From: Planctomycetota bacterium
GTDB taxonomy: Bacteria > Planctomycetota > MHYJ01 > WSZJ01
Direction: 5' to 3'
Length of the DNA stretch: 32,980 nucleotides
Assembly: GCA_021413805.1 (NCBI GenBank)
Contig: JAIOPR010000158.1
Coordinates: 1 to 32,980, forward strand
Shown here piece by piece: positions 18,115-32,723 of the stretch. Position numbers and translations under genes: made by a program. How positions within the stretch are numbered: the stretch's first letter is position 1; every line of letters begins with the position of its first letter. The notes under the pieces were generated by a model, which was not told the DNA's origin, did no database searches, and saw only the letters and a program-made list of their open reading frames with translations.

Positions 18115-19713
18115 ATGAGCCAACCCCTGCCGCCGCGCGACCCGCGGCAAGTCAGCAGTTCGCCGACGATCCCGAAGCCCGGGGCGGCGCGGCCGCGCGA
18201 GTTCGACGTCGCGGACCTGTTCCGCGGGCCGTCCACCGTGGCCGATTCCTCGATCCCGATGGCCACCGTGCCGCTCGACGACAAATTCCGGCAGGCGTAT
18301 TACTGGATCGTCAACCACGCGATCATCACGCCGTACTACGACATCGAGTTCAACGAAGCGGCGCCGCGCTCGTTTCGCTTCGGCGGCGCGGGAACGGATG
18401 TGCGGCTCCCCACGGCGGCGTCGTTCTCGTCCTTCGTCCTGCTCCCGCTGCTCACGTTCGCGGGCCGCAAAAAAGCCCTGTTCGTCGGCGGCCCCGGCCG
18501 CGGCAAGACCGCTTCCTCCCTCCTGATGGGCATCCTCGCGGGCTACTCCCTGAAGGACATGCGCCGCGCCATGCAGCACGGCCAGCCCCAGATGACCGTC
18601 TCCGATCTGCTCGGGTCGCCGCTTCCCAAGGACCTGATCCAGGCGGACGACATGGAGAAGATCCGGATCGGGTGGCGCCAGTGGATCAAGATGCGGGTGA
18701 AGATCGTGGACGAGTACAACCGGATCCCGACGCGCACGCAGTCGGCGCTCCTGACGCTGATGTCGGACGGGTACGCCGAGGTGCTGGGCCAGACGGTGGA
18801 GTCGCCGGAAAGCGCGTGGTTCCTGACCGCGAACGACGACGCAGGGGGCGGGACGTACCAGGTGATCGAAGCGCTGAAGGACCGGATCGACGTGGTGATC
18901 AAGGCGCTGAATTTCAACCCGCGGTTTCTCGGGGACCTGCTGACGCGGATCGAGGACGGGGTGAAGCCGGAAGCGCTGGTCCCGGACGAGATCAAGTTCA
19001 CGGAGCAGGAGCTGAACGAGACGTATGCGCAGATCCTGAAGGTCCCGGTGCCGCGCGGCGTGCGGCGGCGGCTCGAGTTCTTCGCGGCGCAGTTCGACTT
19101 CTGCGACCTGGCCGCGCAGGAGGTCGAGTACAAGTCGAAGGACACGATTCACCTCGCGGGAAAGACGTTGTCCGCGACCTGCGCGAATGACTGCGGCCGG
19201 GACAAGGTGAAATGCCTCTGCAGCCAGACGGAGAACGGCCTGTCGGTGCGGAGCCTGATGACGCTCCTGACGTTCACGAAGACTCTCGCATGGTTCCGCG
19301 GCAACCCCGAAGTAACCCCGGACGACGTCCGGCAGATCGCGCCGTTCGTGCTCCACGAAAAGCTCCAGATCAACCCGACGTCGCCGTTCTTCGACCAGCA
19401 GAGCGCGCAGATTTTCCGGGTGGACCGGATCGCGTGGCTTCGGAAAGCGTGGGAACTGTCGTGCGAGGAATTCGTGCGCCTCAATCTCGACCGCGAAGAT
19501 CCCGTCGCCGAGCTCGACGAGGATTTCGACAAGGGCCTCGAAGGCGTGCCGATGGCCGTCGTCGAAAAACAGGTCACGAAAATCGAGACCCACCTCGGGA
19601 AAATCGCGAAAAACTCCAAGCTCTACGCCCACGTGCAGGCCGACGTCCTGAAACTGAAGTACTACCACCAGCGCTACTCGAACTACCGGAGGTGGCTCGC
19701 CCTGCAGGGGTGA
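18115..19713 (+). CDS. MoxR-like AAA+ ATPase with four-Cys segment
   Basis: Walker A FVGGPGRGKT, Walker B VKIVDEYNRIPTRTQSALLTLMSDG, sensor FLTANDD, and C-terminal CANDCGRDKVKCLC. Confidence 0.85.
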   Translation: MSQPLPPRDPRQVSSSPTIPKPGAARPREFDVADLFRGPSTVADSSIPMATVPLDDKFRQAYYWIVNHAIITPYYDIEFNEAAPRSFRFGGAGTDVRLPTAASFSSFVLLPLLTFAGRKKALFVGGPGRGKTASSLLMGILAGYSLKDMRRAMQHGQPQMTVSDLLGSPLPKDLIQADDMEKIRIGWRQWIKMRVKIVDEYNRIPTRTQSALLTLMSDGYAEVLGQTVESPESAWFLTANDDAGGGTYQVIEALKDRIDVVIKALNFNPRFLGDLLTRIEDGVKPEALVPDEIKFTEQELNETYAQILKVPVPRGVRRRLEFFAAQFDFCDLAAQEVEYKSKDTIHLAGKTLSATCANDCGRDKVKCLCSQTENGLSVRSLMTLLTFTKTLAWFRGNPEVTPDDVRQIAPFVLHEKLQINPTSPFFDQQSAQIFRVDRIAWLRKAWELSCEEFVRLNLDREDPVAELDEDFDKGLEGVPMAVVEKQVTKIETHLGKIAKNSKLYAHVQADVLKLKYYHQRYSNYRRWLALQG

Positions 19714-19721
19714 CGCCTCCC

Positions 19722-20870
19722 ATGCCGACCCTCGCCCCCTCCTTCACCCGCGACTGGCTCGCCACCCGCCGCGAGGAACTCAATGGCCGCTTCCGCATCG
19801 CAAAGCGCCGCTCGCCCTCGCTGGACCCGCAGGCGGTGCTCGACCTGTGCGCCCAGTTGCTCCCGGCGCTGGGCGGCACAGGCGAGGAGGGCGCAGCCGA
19901 CCTGCTCTCCGCCGCGTACGACCTCATCCTTCTTCACGCCGGCCGCGGCACGCTCACGCGCAACGGCGGCTCGAACCCGGCCGTCCCCGTGCTTTTCCGC
20001 GAAACCTTCCCCAGCCTCCGGCCGCTTCTCCTCTCCCGCCCCCGGTTTCTCCCCGGCGCGCTCTCCAACGCCGCCGAAAACCTCGGCGCCCGAGGCGAAG
20101 AATTCGCCCGGCGCATCGTCGCCGTCGGCGGGCGCCTCGAACGCGGAAACGACCTCCCCGACGCGGTCGCGCTGGTCGCATGGCGGCTGGGGGAAGCGCG
20201 CCTTCGCGTCGAGGCGCTGAAAGGCGCCGGCCGCCTGCCCGCCGCGGCGGTGCTGGAGGCGCTTCAATTGGGAGATTGGCCGCCGGAAGCGGCGTCGCTG
20301 GCCGTTGCGGGACTCGAAGCGGACGGCTGGCGGCGTCCGGACGACGCGATCTCGGAGTCCACGGTCGAATCGCTTTCCAAAGCATCGCCGCGAAAGCTCG
20401 AGGATCTTCGCAAGGCGCTGTCAACTCCCCCGCGCGCCGGGTTGGGAGAGTGGGAACCTGCCGGAAGGGTCGGCGATTTCAGCGGATTCGGCGGGGGGTT
20501 CGACGAGCCGCCGCTTCTGCTCGCCGCGCCCGAAACGACGCGCCACCGGTTCTGGGCGCTCGCTGCGAACGGCGCTTTCCGGATCGAGGCCGACATCTGG
20601 GGATGGTCCTGCCGCCCGGACCCGGCGGCGGCGGGGCTTGGGGTGAGCGAAGCGAAACCGCGCGGAATTGTGTCGTCGATCCTGTTTGGCGGGGACGACG
20701 GTGCGCCCCGGCTGGATGCGGACGGGACGCTTTCCTTCGGGGGCGAGTCGCGCAAAGTTGCAGGTGCAAAAAGTGCGACCTCCAGCATCGCCGCGGCCGA
20801 TGCGGTCGCCTGGACCATTGCGGACAGCCACCGCATCCGCATCCTTGTGCCGCGGACGCCGGCACTCTGA
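19722..20870 (+). CDS. Uncharacterised protein between AAA+ and vWA genes (helical N-terminus, beta-rich C-terminus)
   Basis: Open frame of 383 codons beginning 9 nt after the AAA+ stop; MPTLAPSFTRDWLATRREELNGRFRIAKRRSP... and C-terminal PPLLLAAPETTRHRFWALAANGAFRIEAD...DGTLSFGGESRKVAG...VAWTIADSHRIRILVP. Confidence 0.75.
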   Translation: MPTLAPSFTRDWLATRREELNGRFRIAKRRSPSLDPQAVLDLCAQLLPALGGTGEEGAADLLSAAYDLILLHAGRGTLTRNGGSNPAVPVLFRETFPSLRPLLLSRPRFLPGALSNAAENLGARGEEFARRIVAVGGRLERGNDLPDAVALVAWRLGEARLRVEALKGAGRLPAAAVLEALQLGDWPPEAASLAVAGLEADGWRRPDDAISESTVESLSKASPRKLEDLRKALSTPPRAGLGEWEPAGRVGDFSGFGGGFDEPPLLLAAPETTRHRFWALAANGAFRIEADIWGWSCRPDPAAAGLGVSEAKPRGIVSSILFGGDDGAPRLDADGTLSFGGESRKVAGAKSATSSIAAADAVAWTIADSHRIRILVPRTPAL

Positions 20871-20895
20871 TCATGAGCTTCCCCGGGATGGATGC

Positions 20896-22731
20896 ATGAG
20901 CACGACGCGAAGACTCCGCCGTGCGGCTGCTTCCCGGTCGCCGCTCGAGATCCTGTGGCGGTCGCGCTGGCCTGAGGCCCTGGCGGCGTGGTCTCCCTAC
21001 ACACAGCTTGGCGAGCCGATTTTCTGCGAAACAGATGCGAAGGCCCGGCCCTGGGGGATGGCGGGCCAGATCGCGGCGATCCGGCTGACCGACCAGCTCG
21101 TGATGGTGAACCTGGAAACCGTGCGCGCCGACAAGCTCGACGACCTGGCGCTTCCCGTCCTCGCCCACGAGATCGGGCACCACGTCTTCGTGCCGGGAAA
21201 CCTGGCGGACAACGGGCGGATGCTCGCGGCGATCCGGCGCGAGCTTTACGGGCTGCCGGGGGACGTGGCGGCGATGGTCGCGAACCTGTACGGCGACCTG
21301 CACATCAACGACCGGCTGCAGGGGCAGGGCGTGGATATCGCCGGGGTTTACCGGAAGCTGCGGGAGTCCTCCCCCGACGAAGCGAAGTCCGGGCAGACCT
21401 CGGCGGTCTGGAAGGTCTACACGCGGGCCTATGAAATTCTCTGGAGGCTTCCAAAGGAATCGCTGGCGCCGCTCGGCGTGACTCACGAGATGGAACTCGA
21501 CGCGACCGTGGTGGCCCGCCTCGTGAAACACTTCGCGGGAGACTGGCTCCGCGGCGCCCGCCGCTTCGCCGCCCTCCTCTACCCGTGGCTCATCGAGGAC
21601 AGGGACAAACAGCGGGTGCCGGATTTCATCCAGCGCGGTCTGCACGACACTAAATCGGCCGGCGCGGGAGCGGATTCCCCCGACGCCGTCCCGGACGGGC
21701 TCGCGGAAATCGGCGAAGACGAAATGGACGAGGGCGACGACTTTGACGCCGAGATGGCGGACCCGCTGGACGAGGGAACGCGAAGCGGCCGCGGGCGGAG
21801 CCGGCACCAGGAGCGGAAAGCGGAGAACACCGCTCCGGACAAAGAGGGAAAAGGCCGCCCCGGCGCCCAGTTCCGCGAGCCGTTCGAGTACGGGGAATTG
21901 CTGAAGGCCCTCGGCCTGAACCTTTCGCAACACGAGGTCACCACGCGCTATTACCGCGAACGCGCGCTTCCCAACCTCATCCCGTTCCCCGAGCGACGGC
22001 AGCCTCGCACCCTGGAGCCGATGCCGGAGGGTTACGAGACCTGGGAAGCGCAGGACCCGTTCGAGCAAATGGACCTGGCGGGGACGATCGCGCGGTCGCC
22101 GGTGGTGATCCCGGGGGTGACGACGGTGCAGCGGACGTTCGCGGAAATCCCGGGAAGCGAGCCGGCGCCGCGGCCGCTCGACCTGGACATCTACGTGGAC
22201 TCGTCGGGCTCGATGCCGAATCCCGCGACGACCATCAGCTACCTGGCGCTGGCCGGGGCCATCCTCGCCCTGTCGGCGCTTCGGGCCGGCGCGCGCGTCC
22301 AGGCAACGCTCTGGAGCGGCGCGGGTCAGTTCGCGAAGACCGACGGGTTCGTGCGCGACGAGAAGCAGATCATCGGGATCATGACCGGGTTCATGGGAGA
22401 CGGGACGGCGTTCCCGCTCAACGTGCTTCGCAAGACCTACGAGGACCGCAAGCCCGACGACCCCAACGTCCACATCGTGGTCATTTCCGACGACGGCGTG
22501 GACACGATGCTCCAGAGCGACGAGAAGAACAACAAGGGCATCGACGTCGCGCGGACGGCGCTGAAAAACGCCCGCGGCGGCGGGACCCTCGTCCTGAACA
22601 TCCCGAAGGGCGGCGAAAAACGTCTCTCGGCACTCTCGGACGCCGGCTACCGGATCCACGGCGTCCAGCAATGGGAACAACTCGTGGATTTCGCCCGCAA
22701 GTTCGTCCGCGACAACTACGCGCCGAAGTAG
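20896..22731 (+). CDS. Zincin-like metallopeptidase domain fused to vWA domain
   Basis: LPVLAHEIGHHVF (HExxH) with downstream NLYGDLHINDRLQ; vWA MIDAS DLDIYVDSSGSMPNP, GDGTAFPLN, VVISDDGVD; acidic linker between domains. Confidence 0.85.
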   Translation: MSTTRRLRRAAASRSPLEILWRSRWPEALAAWSPYTQLGEPIFCETDAKARPWGMAGQIAAIRLTDQLVMVNLETVRADKLDDLALPVLAHEIGHHVFVPGNLADNGRMLAAIRRELYGLPGDVAAMVANLYGDLHINDRLQGQGVDIAGVYRKLRESSPDEAKSGQTSAVWKVYTRAYEILWRLPKESLAPLGVTHEMELDATVVARLVKHFAGDWLRGARRFAALLYPWLIEDRDKQRVPDFIQRGLHDTKSAGAGADSPDAVPDGLAEIGEDEMDEGDDFDAEMADPLDEGTRSGRGRSRHQERKAENTAPDKEGKGRPGAQFREPFEYGELLKALGLNLSQHEVTTRYYRERALPNLIPFPERRQPRTLEPMPEGYETWEAQDPFEQMDLAGTIARSPVVIPGVTTVQRTFAEIPGSEPAPRPLDLDIYVDSSGSMPNPATTISYLALAGAILALSALRAGARVQATLWSGAGQFAKTDGFVRDEKQIIGIMTGFMGDGTAFPLNVLRKTYEDRKPDDPNVHIVVISDDGVDTMLQSDEKNNKGIDVARTALKNARGGGTLVLNIPKGGEKRLSALSDAGYRIHGVQQWEQLVDFARKFVRDNYAPK

Positions 22732-23476: not shown

Positions 23477-23628
23477 ATTGAAGAGTTGGGTATCGTGCGG
23501 GAAGAGGGGGGTGCGATTCAAGCACCTTTGCAGTAGGAAGGCGCGACCCTCTGATACGTTGAGACTTGGGGAATTATTCCCACCATCTCTTCCGTCAGGC
23601 TCGAAACCAGAACCGTTCCGGAGAACCG

Positions 23629-25293
23629 ATGATCCGCGAGATCGAACAGGACGGCGTGCGCCTCCGCATCGATGCGGGGCCACAGGTGATTTCGCTCGAC
23701 TGCCCCGACGATGTGGAGTGGAGCAACCCGGGGCTCGTGCCGTCGGTCGCCGCCGCGCACCCCTGGGGGTTCGTGTCCGGGTCGGTGCTCGCCGCGAAAG
23801 CGAAAGCGTTCGACGACGGGCTCATCGCGGCGGTCGAGCTGGCGATGCAGGCCGGCGCGGGAACCTTTGCAGGAAAATCGGCGTTTCTCGCGGCCGTTTC
23901 GGCAAAGTTTGCCGACCCCCGCGTCTCGGCCCTCATCCACGGCGCCCGCCAGCTCGGGTCCGGCACGCCTCCGCCATCCGCCCTGGCCGCCGCGACGCAG
24001 CAGGTCGTGGGCGACTTCCTGCGCGACGAGCGGCTGTCCAAGCCGCTCGGCTTCTACACCTGGTCCGCCGCCCTCGAGAAGATCTTCCAGCAGGATCGCC
24101 TGCTCCAGACCGAACTTCCCGACGCCGCTGCCTTCACGGACGCCGCCCGAGCTCTTCAGCCGCACCGCGCCGCCTACGAAACGTGGATGTCCCTCGCCGA
24201 GCGCCTCACCAATCCCTTCACTCGCCCCGACCTTCGCGCCGCCCTTCGCGACCTCGATCGCGGAGCCTCCCCGGAGTTTCGACGCGGCGTCGCGTTTTCG
24301 CCGCCTTCCGAATCGCCCGAGGGAGCCCTCGTGAAGCGCCTGTTTGCCACCCGGCCGATCCCCGAGGGGTTCAACCTCGCCGACGCGCTGATCGCGGAAA
24401 TCCGCAAAGGGTCCGTGGACCTCTCCCCGAAACCCGATTCCGGCTGGTACGACCGCATCGCGTGGTCGCTCGAAACTCTCGCCGCGCCGGACCGCGGGCC
24501 GGAGGCGACGAAACTCGACCTGCAGAAGAACTACCGCGACACCCTGACCGAGCTCTTCAAGGGAATCCTCGCCCTCGCCCGCGAATCGCACGTCAAGCAG
24601 CTCGAGGAACCGCGCGCCGGGTGCGGCCCGCCGCGCCCGAAGATCCGCCCGCAGCTCAGCGCCGAACCGCTCCCGACGCACTACCTGCGCCGCGCGCTCG
24701 GCTACCGGTTCGTCCGGGAGGTCCTGGAATCGACGTTTGGCGCCGCCGCGCTTCGCGACATGCGCCGGCTCACCGCCGACGGCCCGGTGGCGATTCCGCT
24801 CCCGGACGAGCTTGCCTCGACGGAAGAGCTCTTTTTCGGTGCGCACGCCGCTTCGTGCGCCGAGATCGGGCTTCCCGCCGACCCGCAGACGCCGGCGCAG
24901 GCCGCGGCGCGCTTTGCCGGCTGGGTTAAGGACCTCGCCGCTGACCCCGACCTCAAGACGGACAACCGGATGATGGTCCCGGTCTTCTTCGACGTGCAAC
25001 GAAAGCAGGTAAAAGTCTGGGTCCTGCTCGGCTGGACGAGCCGCCCGCTCAAGGCGTCGTTCAAGACGGCGCCGAAGGTGGAGATCCTGGCGACGGCGGA
25101 AAAGAAAGGCTGGTTCGGGATCGGCAAGAAGAAGGCCGAAGCCCCGGCGATCGAGTTCGAAACGGCGACGCACTCCCTGATCACGCCGGTGACAGCCGAG
25201 GTCTACGTCACGCAGCGCCTGAACCGGCAGGAATTCCGGGCGCACTGCGACAAGTACAGGACGAAGGAGGAGATCCTCGCGAATTTGAGGTAG
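23629..25293 (+). CDS. Uncharacterised 554-aa protein
   Basis: Long ORF with balanced composition and divergent promoter region; distinctive segments KPLGFYTWSAALEKIFQQDRLLQ, AAYETWMSLAERLTNPFTRPDLRAALRDLDRG; no family confidently recognised. Confidence 0.75.
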   Translation: MIREIEQDGVRLRIDAGPQVISLDCPDDVEWSNPGLVPSVAAAHPWGFVSGSVLAAKAKAFDDGLIAAVELAMQAGAGTFAGKSAFLAAVSAKFADPRVSALIHGARQLGSGTPPPSALAAATQQVVGDFLRDERLSKPLGFYTWSAALEKIFQQDRLLQTELPDAAAFTDAARALQPHRAAYETWMSLAERLTNPFTRPDLRAALRDLDRGASPEFRRGVAFSPPSESPEGALVKRLFATRPIPEGFNLADALIAEIRKGSVDLSPKPDSGWYDRIAWSLETLAAPDRGPEATKLDLQKNYRDTLTELFKGILALARESHVKQLEEPRAGCGPPRPKIRPQLSAEPLPTHYLRRALGYRFVREVLESTFGAAALRDMRRLTADGPVAIPLPDELASTEELFFGAHAASCAEIGLPADPQTPAQAAARFAGWVKDLAADPDLKTDNRMMVPVFFDVQRKQVKVWVLLGWTSRPLKASFKTAPKVEILATAEKKGWFGIGKKKAEAPAIEFETATHSLITPVTAEVYVTQRLNRQEFRAHCDKYRTKEEILANLR

Positions 25294-25426: not shown

Positions 25427-26410
25427 CTAAAACACCCGCTCCGTCCCGCTCCGCTTCGTCGCTTCGTCCAGCAGCCTGCCCACGAGCGGGACATACTTGA
25501 ATCCGCCCAGCCGCGCGGCCCGGGCGAACTCCCCGCGGATCTCGAGGTAGGGGTTCGGGTTCACCTCGATCACGAACGGCTCGTCGAGCTCGTTCACGCG
25601 GATATCGACACGCGCATAACTCCGGACCTGGCACGCCCGGCAGGCTTCCCGCGCCGTGTGCTCGATCTTGCGCCGAAGCCCCGCCGACAGCGCGCGGACC
25701 CGCTTCACCTGCGTCCCCTTGTACGCGGCCGACTTCGTATAGAACTTCGCCGCGCGCCCCATGATGTGAAGTTTGCGGGCGCCAAGGCCGGTGAAATCGA
25801 CCTCGAGAAGCGGCAGGACGCGGTCGAAGAGGACGGCGGCGTAGATTTCGCGGCCCCGGATGTATTCCTCGGCCAGGACCGCGTCCTTGGTCTTGTGCAG
25901 CAGTTGCTTCACCCGCGTCTGCATTTCGTCCCACGTCTTCACGAACGAGACGTCGCCGATGGAGAGTGAAGCGTCGGAGCGCATGGGCTTGACGAACATG
26001 GGGAAGTTCAGGTGGCCGCCGACGAGGTCAGGTTTTTCGCGCGTGAAGACCGCGAACTCCGGGTAGGCGATGTTGTGGAACTCGTAGAGTTTTTTCGACA
26101 GCGCCTTGTCCCCGGCAAGGGCGAGGCCCAGCGACGAATTGCCGGTGAACGGGATGCCGAGCAGTTCGAGCACCGCCGCGACGCGCGATTCCTGCTTCCC
26201 ATCGCCGCGCCATTCTTCGCACAAGTTGAAAATCACGTCGGGCGCGGTCTTGCGGATTCCCGCGACGAGCGCGTCGAGTTCCAGCGGAACGGGGAACGGG
26301 ACCGGCGCGTGGCCGAGACGGACGAGCGCGCGGGCGACCTGGAGGACGACGATGTCGGGCTTGCGGCCGCCGGGCGTGTAGGGAGAGTAGAGGACGAGGA
26401 CGCGTTTCAT
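25427..26410 (-). CDS. ATP-grasp ligase, D-alanine--D-alanine ligase-like
   Basis: PDVIFNLCEEWRGDGKQESRVAAVLELLGIPFTGNSSLGLALAGDKALSKKL, VAEEYIRGREIYAAVL-type segment (VLAEEYIRGREIYAAVLFD), ARVDIRVNELDEPFVIEVNPNPYL. Confidence 0.88.
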   Translation of the reverse strand: MKRVLVLYSPYTPGGRKPDIVVLQVARALVRLGHAPVPFPVPLELDALVAGIRKTAPDVIFNLCEEWRGDGKQESRVAAVLELLGIPFTGNSSLGLALAGDKALSKKLYEFHNIAYPEFAVFTREKPDLVGGHLNFPMFVKPMRSDASLSIGDVSFVKTWDEMQTRVKQLLHKTKDAVLAEEYIRGREIYAAVLFDRVLPLLEVDFTGLGARKLHIMGRAAKFYTKSAAYKGTQVKRVRALSAGLRRKIEHTAREACRACQVRSYARVDIRVNELDEPFVIEVNPNPYLEIRGEFARAARLGGFKYVPLVGRLLDEATKRSGTERVF

Positions 26411-26643: not shown

Positions 26644-26685
26644 CGCCGCTCGCCGCTCGCCGCTCGCCGCTCGCCGCTCGCACTT
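26644..26685 (-). repeat. Heptanucleotide array (CGCCGCT x5 plus degenerate CGCACTT)
   Basis: Five perfect CGCCGCT units (reverse complement AGCGGCG) abutting the stop codon of the metallopeptidase gene. Confidence 0.9.
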
Positions 26686-27706
26686 ACAACTCGATGAATT
26701 TCCCGCTTCTCACCCAGTTCGCGGCCAGCGTCGTCACAAACGCCGTGAATCGCACGATCGCTTCCTCTTCCCCGCCCGCCGGCATCGAGAGCTTCATCTC
26801 CCGGAGCCGCGCGATGAGCTGTTTCGCCATCGCCAGCACCACCGGCTGCCGCGCGCCCGTCCAGTACGCGACCTGCTTGACGATCGCCCGGTGCTTCGCG
26901 TCCGCCCAGGTCGCCGCGCCGTCCGCCTCCGTCGCCGGCCCGAAAAGCTCGCGCAGGTCGCCGTCCGCGTACCCCGCGATCTGCCCCGCGACCACCTCGT
27001 GCTCGTCGCGCCGCTCGTAGTGCTCCTTTACCGTCACCGCTCCCAGTTCTTCCTCCGGCGGCGCATCCACGTCCACCGTCGGCGGCGTCCGGCCGATCGC
27101 CGTCATCGTCCGCTCGACGTACTCGAGCTTCGGAAGCGCCCCGTGCCCCTTGTACTTCTCGCGCCAGTCGATCCCCGGCGTCAGCCACACCGCAAACGTC
27201 TCGGCGAAATCCTCGTCGGGGTGCTTCTGGGCGTACCAGCCGGGGATGTGCTTGACGAATTTTTTGGAGAAGGGGTTCGCCTCGTAGTCCTCGACGTAGG
27301 GGCGGGAGTAGGGGCCGAAGAGCTGGTGCCACTCCTCGGTCTGGTAGAGGCGGTAACCGTAGTTGAAGGCGTGGCCGGCCTCGTGGCGGAGGTACATCAT
27401 CGTGAGGCGGTCGTCCTCGAGGTCCTCGCTGAACTCGTCCTCGAGGCGCTTGAGCCGCTCGTCGGCGAGGTAGAACGGGATGCCGATGACCGGCACGCCT
27501 TCGGGGCAGCCCCACTCGTCGGAGAGGTAGGCCTTGGGGCGGAACTGCAGCCCCTTCCCCTCCAGCTCCTCGGAGAGTTTCTTCAATGCCGACTCCAGCG
27601 GCGTCCCCTCGATGCGGAGCTGGAGCTCGTCGATTTTCTTGGAAAGCACGGCGAGCTTTTCGCTCTCCCAGCTTTCGCGCGGCGTCAGCTCGCGGAAATC
27701 AGCCAT
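26684..27706 (-). CDS. Putative zinc-binding metallopeptidase
   Basis: MMYLRHEAGHAFNYGYRLYQTEEW (HExxH) and downstream HPDEDFAETFAVWLTP; starts 3 nt after the upstream lipoprotein stop. Confidence 0.8.
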   Translation of the reverse strand: MADFRELTPRESWESEKLAVLSKKIDELQLRIEGTPLESALKKLSEELEGKGLQFRPKAYLSDEWGCPEGVPVIGIPFYLADERLKRLEDEFSEDLEDDRLTMMYLRHEAGHAFNYGYRLYQTEEWHQLFGPYSRPYVEDYEANPFSKKFVKHIPGWYAQKHPDEDFAETFAVWLTPGIDWREKYKGHGALPKLEYVERTMTAIGRTPPTVDVDAPPEEELGAVTVKEHYERRDEHEVVAGQIAGYADGDLRELFGPATEADGAATWADAKHRAIVKQVAYWTGARQPVVLAMAKQLIARLREMKLSMPAGGEEEAIVRFTAFVTTLAANWVRSGKFIEL

Positions 27707-29692: not shown

Positions 29693-31834
29693 TTATTCTT
29701 CCGTGCGGTACGTCTTGCCCTGGTACACGACCATGACTTTGCCGAGCGACAGGTACTTCGCGATCCCCGGCTTCTCGTCGATCAGCTTCATGTAGTCGTC
29801 GCCGCCGATCTTCAGCGTCACGACGTCCTTGTTCTTCTCAGGGTCGTAGACGCTGTCGGTCCAGAGGCCGCCGACGTTGTAGAAGCTCTTGGAAGCGATG
29901 ATGCGCATCTTCAGCATGACCTGCTCTTCGCTCTCGCCCGTGACACGGCCGGCGGCACCGTAGGCATCGAACGCCTTCTCGCCGTCGCGAAGGTCCTTGG
30001 CCGCTTCGGCGGCCGGGGCGCTGGGAGCGCCGAACGCGCCGCCCTGCTCCTTGCGGAAACCTTCGGCAACTTTGCGCCGCATCTCGTTCATGTCGCCTTT
30101 GACGGAGTCATCGGCGATCAGGAAGCTCGTGTACGGCGTGACGATCCCGTACTGCTTGGCGAGGCGGGTGATCTCGTCCACCAGCTCCTTCGACTGCCCG
30201 TTGCGCTTCACTTCCTCCATCAGGTACCCGACCTTGCGGCCGGCCCAGACGCGGGGGAGGAAATCGTTGCGGGCGCTGACGGCGGGGAACTTGAGCGTAT
30301 AGGGGAAGGAGACTTCCTTGCCGCCAAGGTGGCCTGTGACGAGCACGTCGCGGTCCGGCGTCCAGGAATCGCCGTCCACGAGGTAGCGGCCGAAGAGGAC
30401 AATCTGCTGGCCCTTGAAGAGGTCCGGCAGGCGACGCGGGTAGAGCTCTTCGACTTTCATGTTCATGAACTTGACGGAGATGTCGGTGAGGACGGGATTG
30501 GCGATGCGGTCGTAGAGGTCGGTGATGCGGGTGGTGAGGTCTTCCTTGGGCATCACGTAGGCCGCGCTGCCGCCGTTGTCGGTCGCGAGCATGTCGAGCA
30601 GGCGTGTGTTGAGCTCGTTGCCGACGCCGAAGGTGAACATGCGGGCGTTGTGGGTGTTCTTCTTGTGCAGGATGTCGGCGAGTTTGTCGGTGTCGGTCTC
30701 GCCCTCGTTGGGGAGGCCGTCCGTCAGGAAGATCAGGTTCTTCGCGTCCGTCTTGTCGGTGAACATCCCGAGCGACAGCGTAACGGCTTCCTCGATCGCC
30801 GTACGGCCGCGCGGCTTGAGCTTATCGACATGGGCGAGCGCTTTCTTCACGTTCTCAGGCGTCGCGGGGAGCAATTCCTCCTTGAAGGCCCGCGCTTCCG
30901 TCCCGAAATCCACGATGTTGAACAGGTCCTCGGGTTTCAGGCGGTTGAGGCAGTACTTGAGGGCGGCCTGGAGCTTGACGAGCCGGTCCTCCTCGATCAT
31001 CGAGCCGGACGAATCGACGCAGAAGACGACCTGCTGCGGGATGACGGGGACCTTCGAGGGATCGATGGTCGGGGAGACCATCATCATGAAGTACCCGCGT
31101 TCTTCCTCGTCGCGGTAGGTCATCGCGGAGACGCCGACATCGCCGCCGGCGACGTGCCAGTAGAGCGCCATCGGCGTCTTCGGCAGGTAGTTCTCCTGCT
31201 CGTAGTGCACCGTCGCGTTGAAATCGTCCGCCCGCGTGACCGTCACGTTGTGCGTCGGCGAGTAGATCGACTTGACCGGTTTCGAGGACTTCATCGTGAC
31301 GTCCACGACGACCCTCTTCAGGGGCTTGAGAAGCGCCTTGGGATTGGTGTTAAGGAATCCCATGCGGTAGACGCCGTCCTCGGACCGGAGGACCTGCGTG
31401 TAGCGCAGCACCGCGACGACTTTCCCCTGCGGCGGGATGTTCGGGACCCCGGCGCGGATCAGGCCTTTGCCGTAGAACTCGAGAAGCGCCGTCTTGCCGC
31501 CCTTCGCCGCGATCTCCGCGAAAACCTTCTTCGCTTTCTCGGCGTCGAGCATCTCGGCCTGGACTTCGTGGTCGCCGAGCTGCATCGACAGCTTGTCGAT
31601 CTGCGCGTCGGCCTCGAACTCCATGTAGCACGTGCCGCCGACCACCGCCTGGGCGTTCGGGTTGAAGAACGTGCACGTGTACTGCTTCACCGCGATGTTG
31701 TCCGTGATGTCGATCGTGATGTGGTCTTCGATCAGCTCCACCGGAAGCGGCGAATGGATGAAACACGCGTGGACAAAGGGAGCGATCGCCGCAAGCGCCG
31801 CTGCCGCCACGACTGCTGCAAGGAACCTTCTCAT
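29693..31834 (-). CDS. Exported VIT domain plus vWA domain protein
   Basis: Signal peptide MRRFLAAVVAAAALAAIAPFVHA; VIT-like DITDNIAVKQYTCTFFNPNAQAVVGGTCYMEFEADAQIDKLSMQLGDHEVQAEMLDAEKAKKVF; vWA QVVFCVDSSGSMIEEDRL, KPRGRTAIEEAV, IFLTDGLPNEGE. Confidence 0.92.
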   Translation of the reverse strand: MRRFLAAVVAAAALAAIAPFVHACFIHSPLPVELIEDHITIDITDNIAVKQYTCTFFNPNAQAVVGGTCYMEFEADAQIDKLSMQLGDHEVQAEMLDAEKAKKVFAEIAAKGGKTALLEFYGKGLIRAGVPNIPPQGKVVAVLRYTQVLRSEDGVYRMGFLNTNPKALLKPLKRVVVDVTMKSSKPVKSIYSPTHNVTVTRADDFNATVHYEQENYLPKTPMALYWHVAGGDVGVSAMTYRDEEERGYFMMMVSPTIDPSKVPVIPQQVVFCVDSSGSMIEEDRLVKLQAALKYCLNRLKPEDLFNIVDFGTEARAFKEELLPATPENVKKALAHVDKLKPRGRTAIEEAVTLSLGMFTDKTDAKNLIFLTDGLPNEGETDTDKLADILHKKNTHNARMFTFGVGNELNTRLLDMLATDNGGSAAYVMPKEDLTTRITDLYDRIANPVLTDISVKFMNMKVEELYPRRLPDLFKGQQIVLFGRYLVDGDSWTPDRDVLVTGHLGGKEVSFPYTLKFPAVSARNDFLPRVWAGRKVGYLMEEVKRNGQSKELVDEITRLAKQYGIVTPYTSFLIADDSVKGDMNEMRRKVAEGFRKEQGGAFGAPSAPAAEAAKDLRDGEKAFDAYGAAGRVTGESEEQVMLKMRIIASKSFYNVGGLWTDSVYDPEKNKDVVTLKIGGDDYMKLIDEKPGIAKYLSLGKVMVVYQGKTYRTEE

Positions 31835-31898
31835 GACCACCTCCTGTGCCCCCGGAATTTTCGACGGCCGGGCGCGACGATCGCGCTTCGGCCTGGAT

Positions 31899-32723
31899 CT
31901 AATGCGCCCCGAACCCTTTGCGGATCCGGTCCAGCTCCGGCCACGGCAGACCTTCCGACACCAGCGTGATCTCGACCGTTCCCGCGACAAAGCGGGACAG
32001 CTTGTACTCGCGGCCGTTGCCCACGATCGTTTCGGTCCCGGGCTTCCCCGTCGGGTCCGTGCTCTGCAGGACCGTCAGCGGCCCGAACGGCGTGGCCCAC
32101 GCGGCTTCCGCCGTCGCGATCGACGGATCGACACGCTTCAGCACCGAGCCGCGCGGCACGTACGCCGGCGGCACGATGAGCCCCGCGGTGGAAAGCTCCG
32201 CCACCGGGGCCGCCGCCACCGCCTTGTCCGACCACGCGTCGTACGACCGAGTGTTAAGCGCTTCGTCGTACGAGCCGATGTAGGCGTAACAGATCCGAGG
32301 TTGCGAGCCGGGAAGCGCCGCGATCTCGACGTGGCGGGCGACCACCCGGTTTTCGGGAGACGCTGCGGCGACCGCGCCGGAGAGAGGCAACCCGTTCTTC
32401 ACCGGATCCACCCGGTCTGTCTTTCCGCCATGCCCCGCGAACCAGACCGCCACGCCCGCCGCCGAAACGAGCACCGCCGCCGCCGCCCCTTTCAGCATCC
32501 AGCCTTTCCGCGGCAATTTCGCCGACACCGCCGGCCAGACGTCCACCGGCCCCGGATCGGCTTTCCAGCCACCGAGCAGAGCTTCGACACGCTCGAGCTC
32601 GCGCATCTCCCGGCTGCACGACTCGCAACCGGCGAGGTGCTCGCGGGCCGGCGAGGCTTCTTCGGCGGTCAATCCGCCGCCGAGAAGCGCCGCCAGCCGT
32701 GGTTTGAGTTCGTGGCAGGTCAT
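31899..32723 (-). CDS. zf-HC2-type anti-sigma factor-like membrane protein
   Basis: MTCHELKPRLAALLGGGLTAEEASPAREHLAGCESCSREMREL (HxxxCxxC), TM helix GAAAAVLVSAAGVAVWFAG. Confidence 0.8.
   Translation of the reverse strand: MTCHELKPRLAALLGGGLTAEEASPAREHLAGCESCSREMRELERVEALLGGWKADPGPVDVWPAVSAKLPRKGWMLKGAAAAVLVSAAGVAVWFAGHGGKTDRVDPVKNGLPLSGAVAAASPENRVVARHVEIAALPGSQPRICYAYIGSYDEALNTRSYDAWSDKAVAAAPVAELSTAGLIVPPAYVPRGSVLKRVDPSIATAEAAWATPFGPLTVLQSTDPTGKPGTETIVGNGREYKLSRFVAGTVEITLVSEGLPWPELDRIRKGFGAH

Follow-up and report, generated by a model that had tools for sequence, protein, structure and literature searches.

A conserved MoxR AAA+ and vWA gene set with a metallopeptidase-like domain and a candidate client protein

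NorQ-NorD and CbbQ-CbbO are two-gene systems dedicated to one enzyme, in which a MoxR AAA+ ATPase is paired with a von Willebrand factor A (vWA) protein bearing a complete metal ion-dependent adhesion site (MIDAS). The vWA domain of NorD sits docked in the ring of NorQ, which twists it (PMC13036017), and the MIDAS ion takes a client carboxylate: an acidic residue of Rubisco is required by the vWA MIDAS of CbbO, and a C-terminal peptide of Rubisco stimulates the CbbQO ATPase (PMC4660213). Ternary MoxR-vWA conflict systems have been divided into VMAP, iSTAND, FtsH and beta-propeller classes (Kaur et al. 2020, PMC7159879). In DUF2201 proteins (DUF2201_N/DUF2201, PF13203/PF09967), an HExxH domain is fused N-terminally to a vWA domain, and an AAA+ gene lies directly upstream (10 of the 12 DUF2201 loci examined). 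Here we analyse a 32,980-nucleotide stretch of DNA from a Planctomycetota bacterium (contig JAIOPR010000158.1 of assembly GCA_021413805.1), hereafter the window, that holds a tandem trio of plus-strand genes, named AAA, MID and ZVW (Table 1). A first-pass annotation had proposed the trio as a variant MoxR-vWA ternary system; the tight spacing it described is confirmed, with gaps of 8 nt between AAA and MID and 25 nt between MID and ZVW, the start of ZVW being ATG 20896 and not the longer TTG at 20668.

ZVW joins an N-terminal HExxH domain to a C-terminal vWA domain, with which the protein ends in its AlphaFold2 model (pLDDT 89.9). The HEIGHH and MIDAS motifs that had been read in this third protein hold up across 61 ZVW proteins from many phyla: the HExxH and four of the five MIDAS residues are invariant, an identity across phyla that puts the pattern far beyond chance. 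ZVW thereby carries the complete MIDAS (DxSxS-T-D) of a MoxR-vWA co-chaperone partner. In the model, HEIGHH lies in helix 85-97 and N130, D134 and N138 in helix 122-143; a helical HExxH with a candidate third ligand in the following helix is expected of clan MA zincins, and D134 is here the putative metal ligand. The window ZVW has no Pfam match at E<1, VWA_2 is matched by 23 of the 61 ZVW relatives (best 3.1e-4) and Peptidase_M48 weakly by three of them (0.029). In the fold search the best match was the NorD vWA in NorQ-NorD complexes (1.6e-5).

Comparison with DUF2201 proteins revealed collinear HExxH, D-x3-N and VYxxL motifs, and the hhalign P values were 4.6e-5 between the HExxH domains and 2.1e-5 over a stretch of 25 residues at DxSGS, against 0.44 and 0.23 for cross-domain controls. 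DUF2201 proteins are smaller (~390 aa against ~610 aa for ZVW) and stand beside an AAA of ~340 aa, and neither Pfam model (PF13203, PF09967) is matched by any of the 61 ZVW at E<=0.1. From these motifs and profiles, we take ZVW for a larger and remote relative of DUF2201 that falls outside the Pfam family. The metallopeptidase-like domain on the vWA partner, which had been singled out as the distinctive point of this locus, loses that standing, since DUF2201 proteins beside AAA+ genes have one too.

AAA presents the hallmarks of the MoxR clade, namely an AAA_3/AAA_5-type core, Walker A and B motifs, an arginine finger and an AAA lid, with Pfam matches to AAA_lid_2 (5.5e-10) and AAA_3 (3.4e-7) both above cut-off. 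The DEYNR Walker B, already noted in the first reading of the sequence, is identical throughout an alignment of 81 rows (80 relatives and the window), and a KDRID motif is invariant or near-invariant. A four-cysteine site (C330, C356, C360, C369) was considered as a feature of the system and rejected: it is invariant in the first six sequences but lineage-specific, three of the four cysteines being kept in just 15/81 rows. MID is modelled with high confidence (AlphaFold2, pLDDT 94.9) as a helical solenoid (residues ~1-240) followed by a beta-rich C-terminal domain (~241-382). The window MID has no match in Pfam (E<1), NCBIfam or PADLOC, and its fold search gave no significant match in the PDB. 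Some non-significant beta-propeller neighbours of the beta domain (best E 0.43) mean that MID may, judging by the model, have a propeller-like origin.

The anatomy of a MoxR-vWA ternary system is thus present, with an AAA+, a vWA protein with complete MIDAS and a conserved, linked third protein; a place among the described systems is not supported, as MID matches no described third component. A Pfam scan of 64 MID proteins returned no VMAP-named family, provided that Pfam has a VMAP-C model, and no AAA or other NTPase match. The latter, together with the solenoid and beta domain and a P-loop that reads GGPGRGKT in 81/81 rows, separates the trio from the FtsH class, whose third component has two FtsH AAA domains and whose P-loop is often GXXXTAKS. 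The comparison with the iSTAND class, whose third component is an inactive STAND NTPase, goes as far as this absence of Pfam NTPase matches. The trio departs from the beta-propeller class too, which has a propeller both C-terminal to the vWA and in its third component, because ZVW ends at its vWA domain and the propeller neighbours of MID are not significant. Furthermore, the metallopeptidase domain is N-terminal and universal, and not a rare effector, and no hypervariable effector is seen.

ZVW matches were found in 9 of 99 genomes, counting the window's own and its relatives. We then used an AAA alignment from six genomes as the sole query against one genome per species of ~85,000 prokaryote species, which returned 317 AAA relatives. 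The best 80 of the 317 come from Planctomycetota, Verrucomicrobiota, Pseudomonadota, Chloroflexota, Spirochaetota, Myxococcota, Acidobacteriota, Gemmatimonadota, Thermodesulfobacteriota, Bacteroidota, and cyanobacterial and Asgard metagenome-assembled genomes. Because AAA alone served as query, the genes next to it provide an independent test, and these were surveyed around the 80. ZVW lies downstream of AAA in 66/80 loci, and MID in 68/80, recognised by homology or as an open reading frame of matching length and position. Where ZVW is absent, the contig ends within 1.8 kb of AAA in 12 of 14 loci, and the genomes of the other two (L118 and L109) encode a full-length ZVW elsewhere (E 3e-255 and 2e-228, respectively). 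The AAA-MID-ZVW order is kept on nearly every uncut contig, and many gene junctions show 4-bp overlaps, like translationally coupled operons. Homologues of the three genes, on whose recurrence together the first-pass annotation had made its proposal depend, do co-occur in other genomes.

Some loci depart from this layout. In two genomes of the window's genus (G001 and G002; L042:4549-6864 and L043:5426-7828) a WD40-type gene separates MID from ZVW; it was considered as the absent beta-propeller partner and rejected, being on the opposite strand, having a signal-peptide-like start and being absent elsewhere. In G005 (L045:7741-10046) an AlbA-like gene of 427 aa and a ParA-like gene are inserted at the same place. 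In G058 (L049:6753-13659) a distant ZVW relative is encoded immediately after a protein of 1614 aa that has a MoxR-like AAA segment, and the pair is possibly a separate giant subfamily.

A larger gene set emerged downstream of ZVW in the 52 loci whose DNA extends 4.5 kb or more beyond it. A protein of ~195 aa, H190, is encoded in 47 of them and a PaaK-like AMP-binding ligase in 45, followed in frequency by NadR (33), PnuC (23) and a radical-SAM/SPASM-like protein (19, plus a second radical-SAM type in 5); the Pfam and NCBIfam labels of these neighbours are AMP-binding, NMN_transporter, NadR-like and Radical_SAM. H190 itself has no Pfam or NCBIfam family. The window lacks these downstream genes, and the same genome carries H190-ligase-PnuC-NadR on another contig (C72; L151 4065-7591). 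Indeed, an H190 profile search of 51 genomes was positive in 14/14 trio carriers, six of which have no H190 at the fetched trio locus, and in 0/35 non-carriers (Fisher 1.5e-12, to be taken as a rough guide since relatives are not independent); the remaining two, whose sole ZVW is very divergent, were also negative. The specific ligase is matched at E<=1e-57 in the tested carriers except the distant G008, and ligase matches in non-carriers are generic, partial and at most 65 bits. Carriers with split genes include Chloroflexota, Bacteroidota, Verrucomicrobiota and Pseudomonadota, a co-inheritance for which adjacency does not account. Where the operon is split, H190 and the ligase mostly remain adjacent. 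The full set is a five-gene core (AAA, MID, ZVW, H190 and AMP-ligase) with PnuC, NadR and radical-SAM as frequent accessories. Radical-SAM was rejected as a core gene: the window's genus and most of the split carriers lack the L076 type, and G003 has the second type. In both NCBIfam and PADLOC the closest match of the accessory radical-SAM protein is viperin, with partial model coverage and a score under the NCBIfam cut-off. Near the operon in seven loci (L096:7531-9927, and L060, L063, L069, L070, L097 and L127) lies a protein with isochorismatase, TCAD9 (PF19974, 203 bits) and dual-specificity phosphatase domains, its gene standing directly upstream of AAA in betaproteobacterial loci.

H190 is best conserved in its C-terminal half, with the consensus ..IREALARKAAEEAAdKwtRE running to the end. 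The last residue is Glu in 63 and Asp in 2 of 67 sequences, and the last two are RE in 51. Conservation up to the very last residue suggests that the free C-terminus of H190 is read by a partner.

We tentatively propose, with a probability of roughly 0.4, that the gene set encodes a MoxR-vWA remodeller like NorQD and CbbQO that grips the acidic tail of H190 through the MIDAS of ZVW and adds a metal-dependent step by the zincin domain. AAA would form a hexamer on which the vWA part of ZVW docks as NorD does on NorQ, and the MIDAS ion would bind an acidic residue of the client, most probably the Glu that ends H190. The captured complex would then be pulled or twisted as ATP is turned over, with MID bridging or selecting, and the zincin domain would act on the remodelled client, either cleaving a peptide or handling metal; whatever is loaded would be supplied or modified by the products of the AMP-ligase and NAD-salvage genes. 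By analogy, the logic of CbbQO and NorQD would thereby extend to a system unlike them in part, as the accessible text on the two-gene systems (PMC13036017, PMC4660213) mentions no HExxH on the vWA protein and no MID, H190 or ligase.

Several observations weigh against this proposal. The zincin assignment made in the first-pass annotation stands as regards the HExxH helix and the invariant N-x3-D-x3-N helix after it, collinear with DUF2201_N; as regards fold, no solved zincin was among the matches listed for ZVW (Foldseek, 50 matches, mostly vWA domains), and catalysis by ZVW is for that reason unproven. The AAA-ZVW-H190 contacts, for their part, are drawn by analogy. The H190 copy beside ZVW in G005 (C12, that is, L061; L045:11995-12741) ends in ..GKTKGAPPK, without an acidic tail, and the other copy in that genome, which adjoins the ligase, still ends in ..DTRE; a distant H190 copy in G085 also lacks the acidic tail, which consequently is not needed at every ZVW. 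In L060 and L063, H190 is several kb away from ZVW. The tail could serve the AMP-ligase and not the MIDAS, and the client of the machine may be another protein than H190.

The proposed mechanism would hold in a conflict as in a maturation setting, and we do not decide between the two. As a defence system, the set would be a fifth MoxR-vWA ternary class, its zincin or a radical-SAM effector being set free upon sensing. A third conserved component beside MoxR and vWA speaks for such a role, as in the described classes, and so do the TCAD9 neighbour in a subset of loci, TCAD9 being tied to vWA-MoxR-VMAP systems (PMC10910872), and the viperin-like accessory, a radical-SAM effector and neighbour having been described for the simple FtsH class (PMC7159879). 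The variable MID-ZVW gap among close relatives, with its WD40 or AlbA-like and ParA insertions, fits as well. On balance we find a defence role unlikely: PADLOC matched none of AAA, MID, ZVW, H190 and the ligase, its one partial, viperin-like hit being to the accessory radical-SAM protein, the architecture is uniform and the vWA protein shows no effector swapping. Moreover, a quick AAA tree is in fairly close agreement with the phyla (20 changes, where 13 is the minimum), and the searched plasmids, phages and viral contigs held no copy, on which ground a mobile-element origin was rejected. The conflict and proteolysis roles first suggested are not supported as they stand; the linked AMP-ligase, NadR, PnuC and radical-SAM genes point just as readily to a pathway for modification or for a cofactor. 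Maturation of a metalloenzyme or of a NAD-derived cofactor would have AAA-ZVW insert or activate a cofactor in the AMP-ligase, the radical-SAM protein or another client, with HExxH holding a metal and not cutting peptides. It draws on the nearest structural match, NorD, which is a metal-insertion co-chaperone, and on the small-molecule enzymes linked to the trio (AMP-binding ligase, PnuC, NadR, radical-SAM/SPASM). We doubt it nonetheless, as loci can do without PnuC, NadR and radical-SAM, an obvious target metalloenzyme common to all of them is lacking, and the HExxH glutamate, needed for hydrolysis and not for metal binding, is invariant in 61/61 ZVW.

Pup tagging brings together a protein whose conserved tail ends in Glu, an ATP-using ligase, an AAA+ and a peptidase-like protein, and the same kinds of component co-occur here around H190. 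By a logic like that of Pup, without shared ancestry, the ligase would activate the C-terminal Glu of H190 and join it to a target, and AAA-MID-ZVW would be an ATP-driven reader that unfolds tagged proteins, the zincin cutting them or removing the tag. This is hinted at by the conservation of the tail to its end, by H190 and the ligase mostly staying adjacent when the operon splits, and by the tail-less copy in G005 lying away from the ligase. We hold it to be improbable. Unlike the Pup system, H190 is ~195 aa long and its ligase belongs to the AMP-binding (PaaK-like) superfamily and not to that of PafA; H190 has no family match, though no search aimed at Pup homology was made. That a housekeeping MoxR gene and a vWA gene are neighbours merely by chance in this lineage is hardly credible. 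MoxR genes are indeed common (weak matches in 94/99 relatives), but in many phyla this particular AAA occurs together with MID and ZVW, and with H190 and the ligase even when unlinked, and these co-occurrence counts rule chance out. Instead, the MoxR-vWA remodeller acting on H190 is the reading that we prefer.

Table 1. Positions of the three genes and their conserved motifs in the window.
Feature	Position	Strand	Basis or conservation
AAA, MoxR-clade AAA+ ATPase, 532 aa	18115..19713	+	ORF from ATG 18115; Pfam
AAA Walker A, GGPGRGKT	18487..18510	+	identical in 81/81 rows
AAA Walker B, VDEYNR	18706..18723	+	DEYNR identical in 81/81
MID, third component, 382 aa	19722..20870	+	ORF from ATG 19722; AlphaFold2 model
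ZVW, N-terminal HExxH domain and C-terminal vWA, 611 aa	20896..22731	+	ORF; AlphaFold2; fold search
ZVW HEIGHH, residues 91-96, putative zinc site	21166..21183	+	H, E, G, H, H identical in 61/61
ZVW N130-x3-D134-x3-N138 helix, candidate third metal ligand	21283..21309	+	invariant in 61/61; collinear with DUF2201_N D-x3-N
ZVW MIDAS DxSxS (DSSGSM, 435-440)	22198..22215	+	D435, S437, S439 in 61/61
ZVW MIDAS Thr (GDGT, 501-504)	22396..22407	+	T504 in 50/61
ZVW MIDAS Asp (SDDG, 531-534)	22486..22497	+	D532 in 61/61

Around the trio, a TPR gene lies 51 nt upstream of AAA, and ZVW is followed by a TPR gene on the opposite strand and by a gene for a 555-aa protein of no family (23626-25293, +), which is kept beside the trio within the genus (G001-G003) and in G003 adjoins a radical-SAM gene. 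The window also encodes a second HExxH protein (Peptidase_Mx, HEAGH; 26684-27706, -), near an ATP-grasp gene (25427-26410), and a second vWA-type protein (CVDSSGSM; 29693-31990, -), apparently of the VIT-vWA kind.

Literature searches on MoxR with PnuC, on PnuC-NadR-radical-SAM operons and on MoxR-vWA-radical-SAM-ligase sets returned nothing beyond Kaur et al. 2020 and no description of this gene set, most subscription papers lying outside the search; the set is apparently undescribed, and its novelty provisional. An unannotated three-gene cassette becomes a defined five-gene core with accessories in at least 10 phyla, whose named hosts are mostly cultivable (Janthinobacterium, Massilia, Hahella, Chitinimonas, Uliginosibacterium and Verrucomicrobium). 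It links a MoxR-vWA machine to an AMP-ligase and NAD salvage, and the H190 tail offers a candidate client handle in a class of machines whose clients are mostly unknown. If the tail were indeed a tag, this would be a new prokaryotic route of protein marking.

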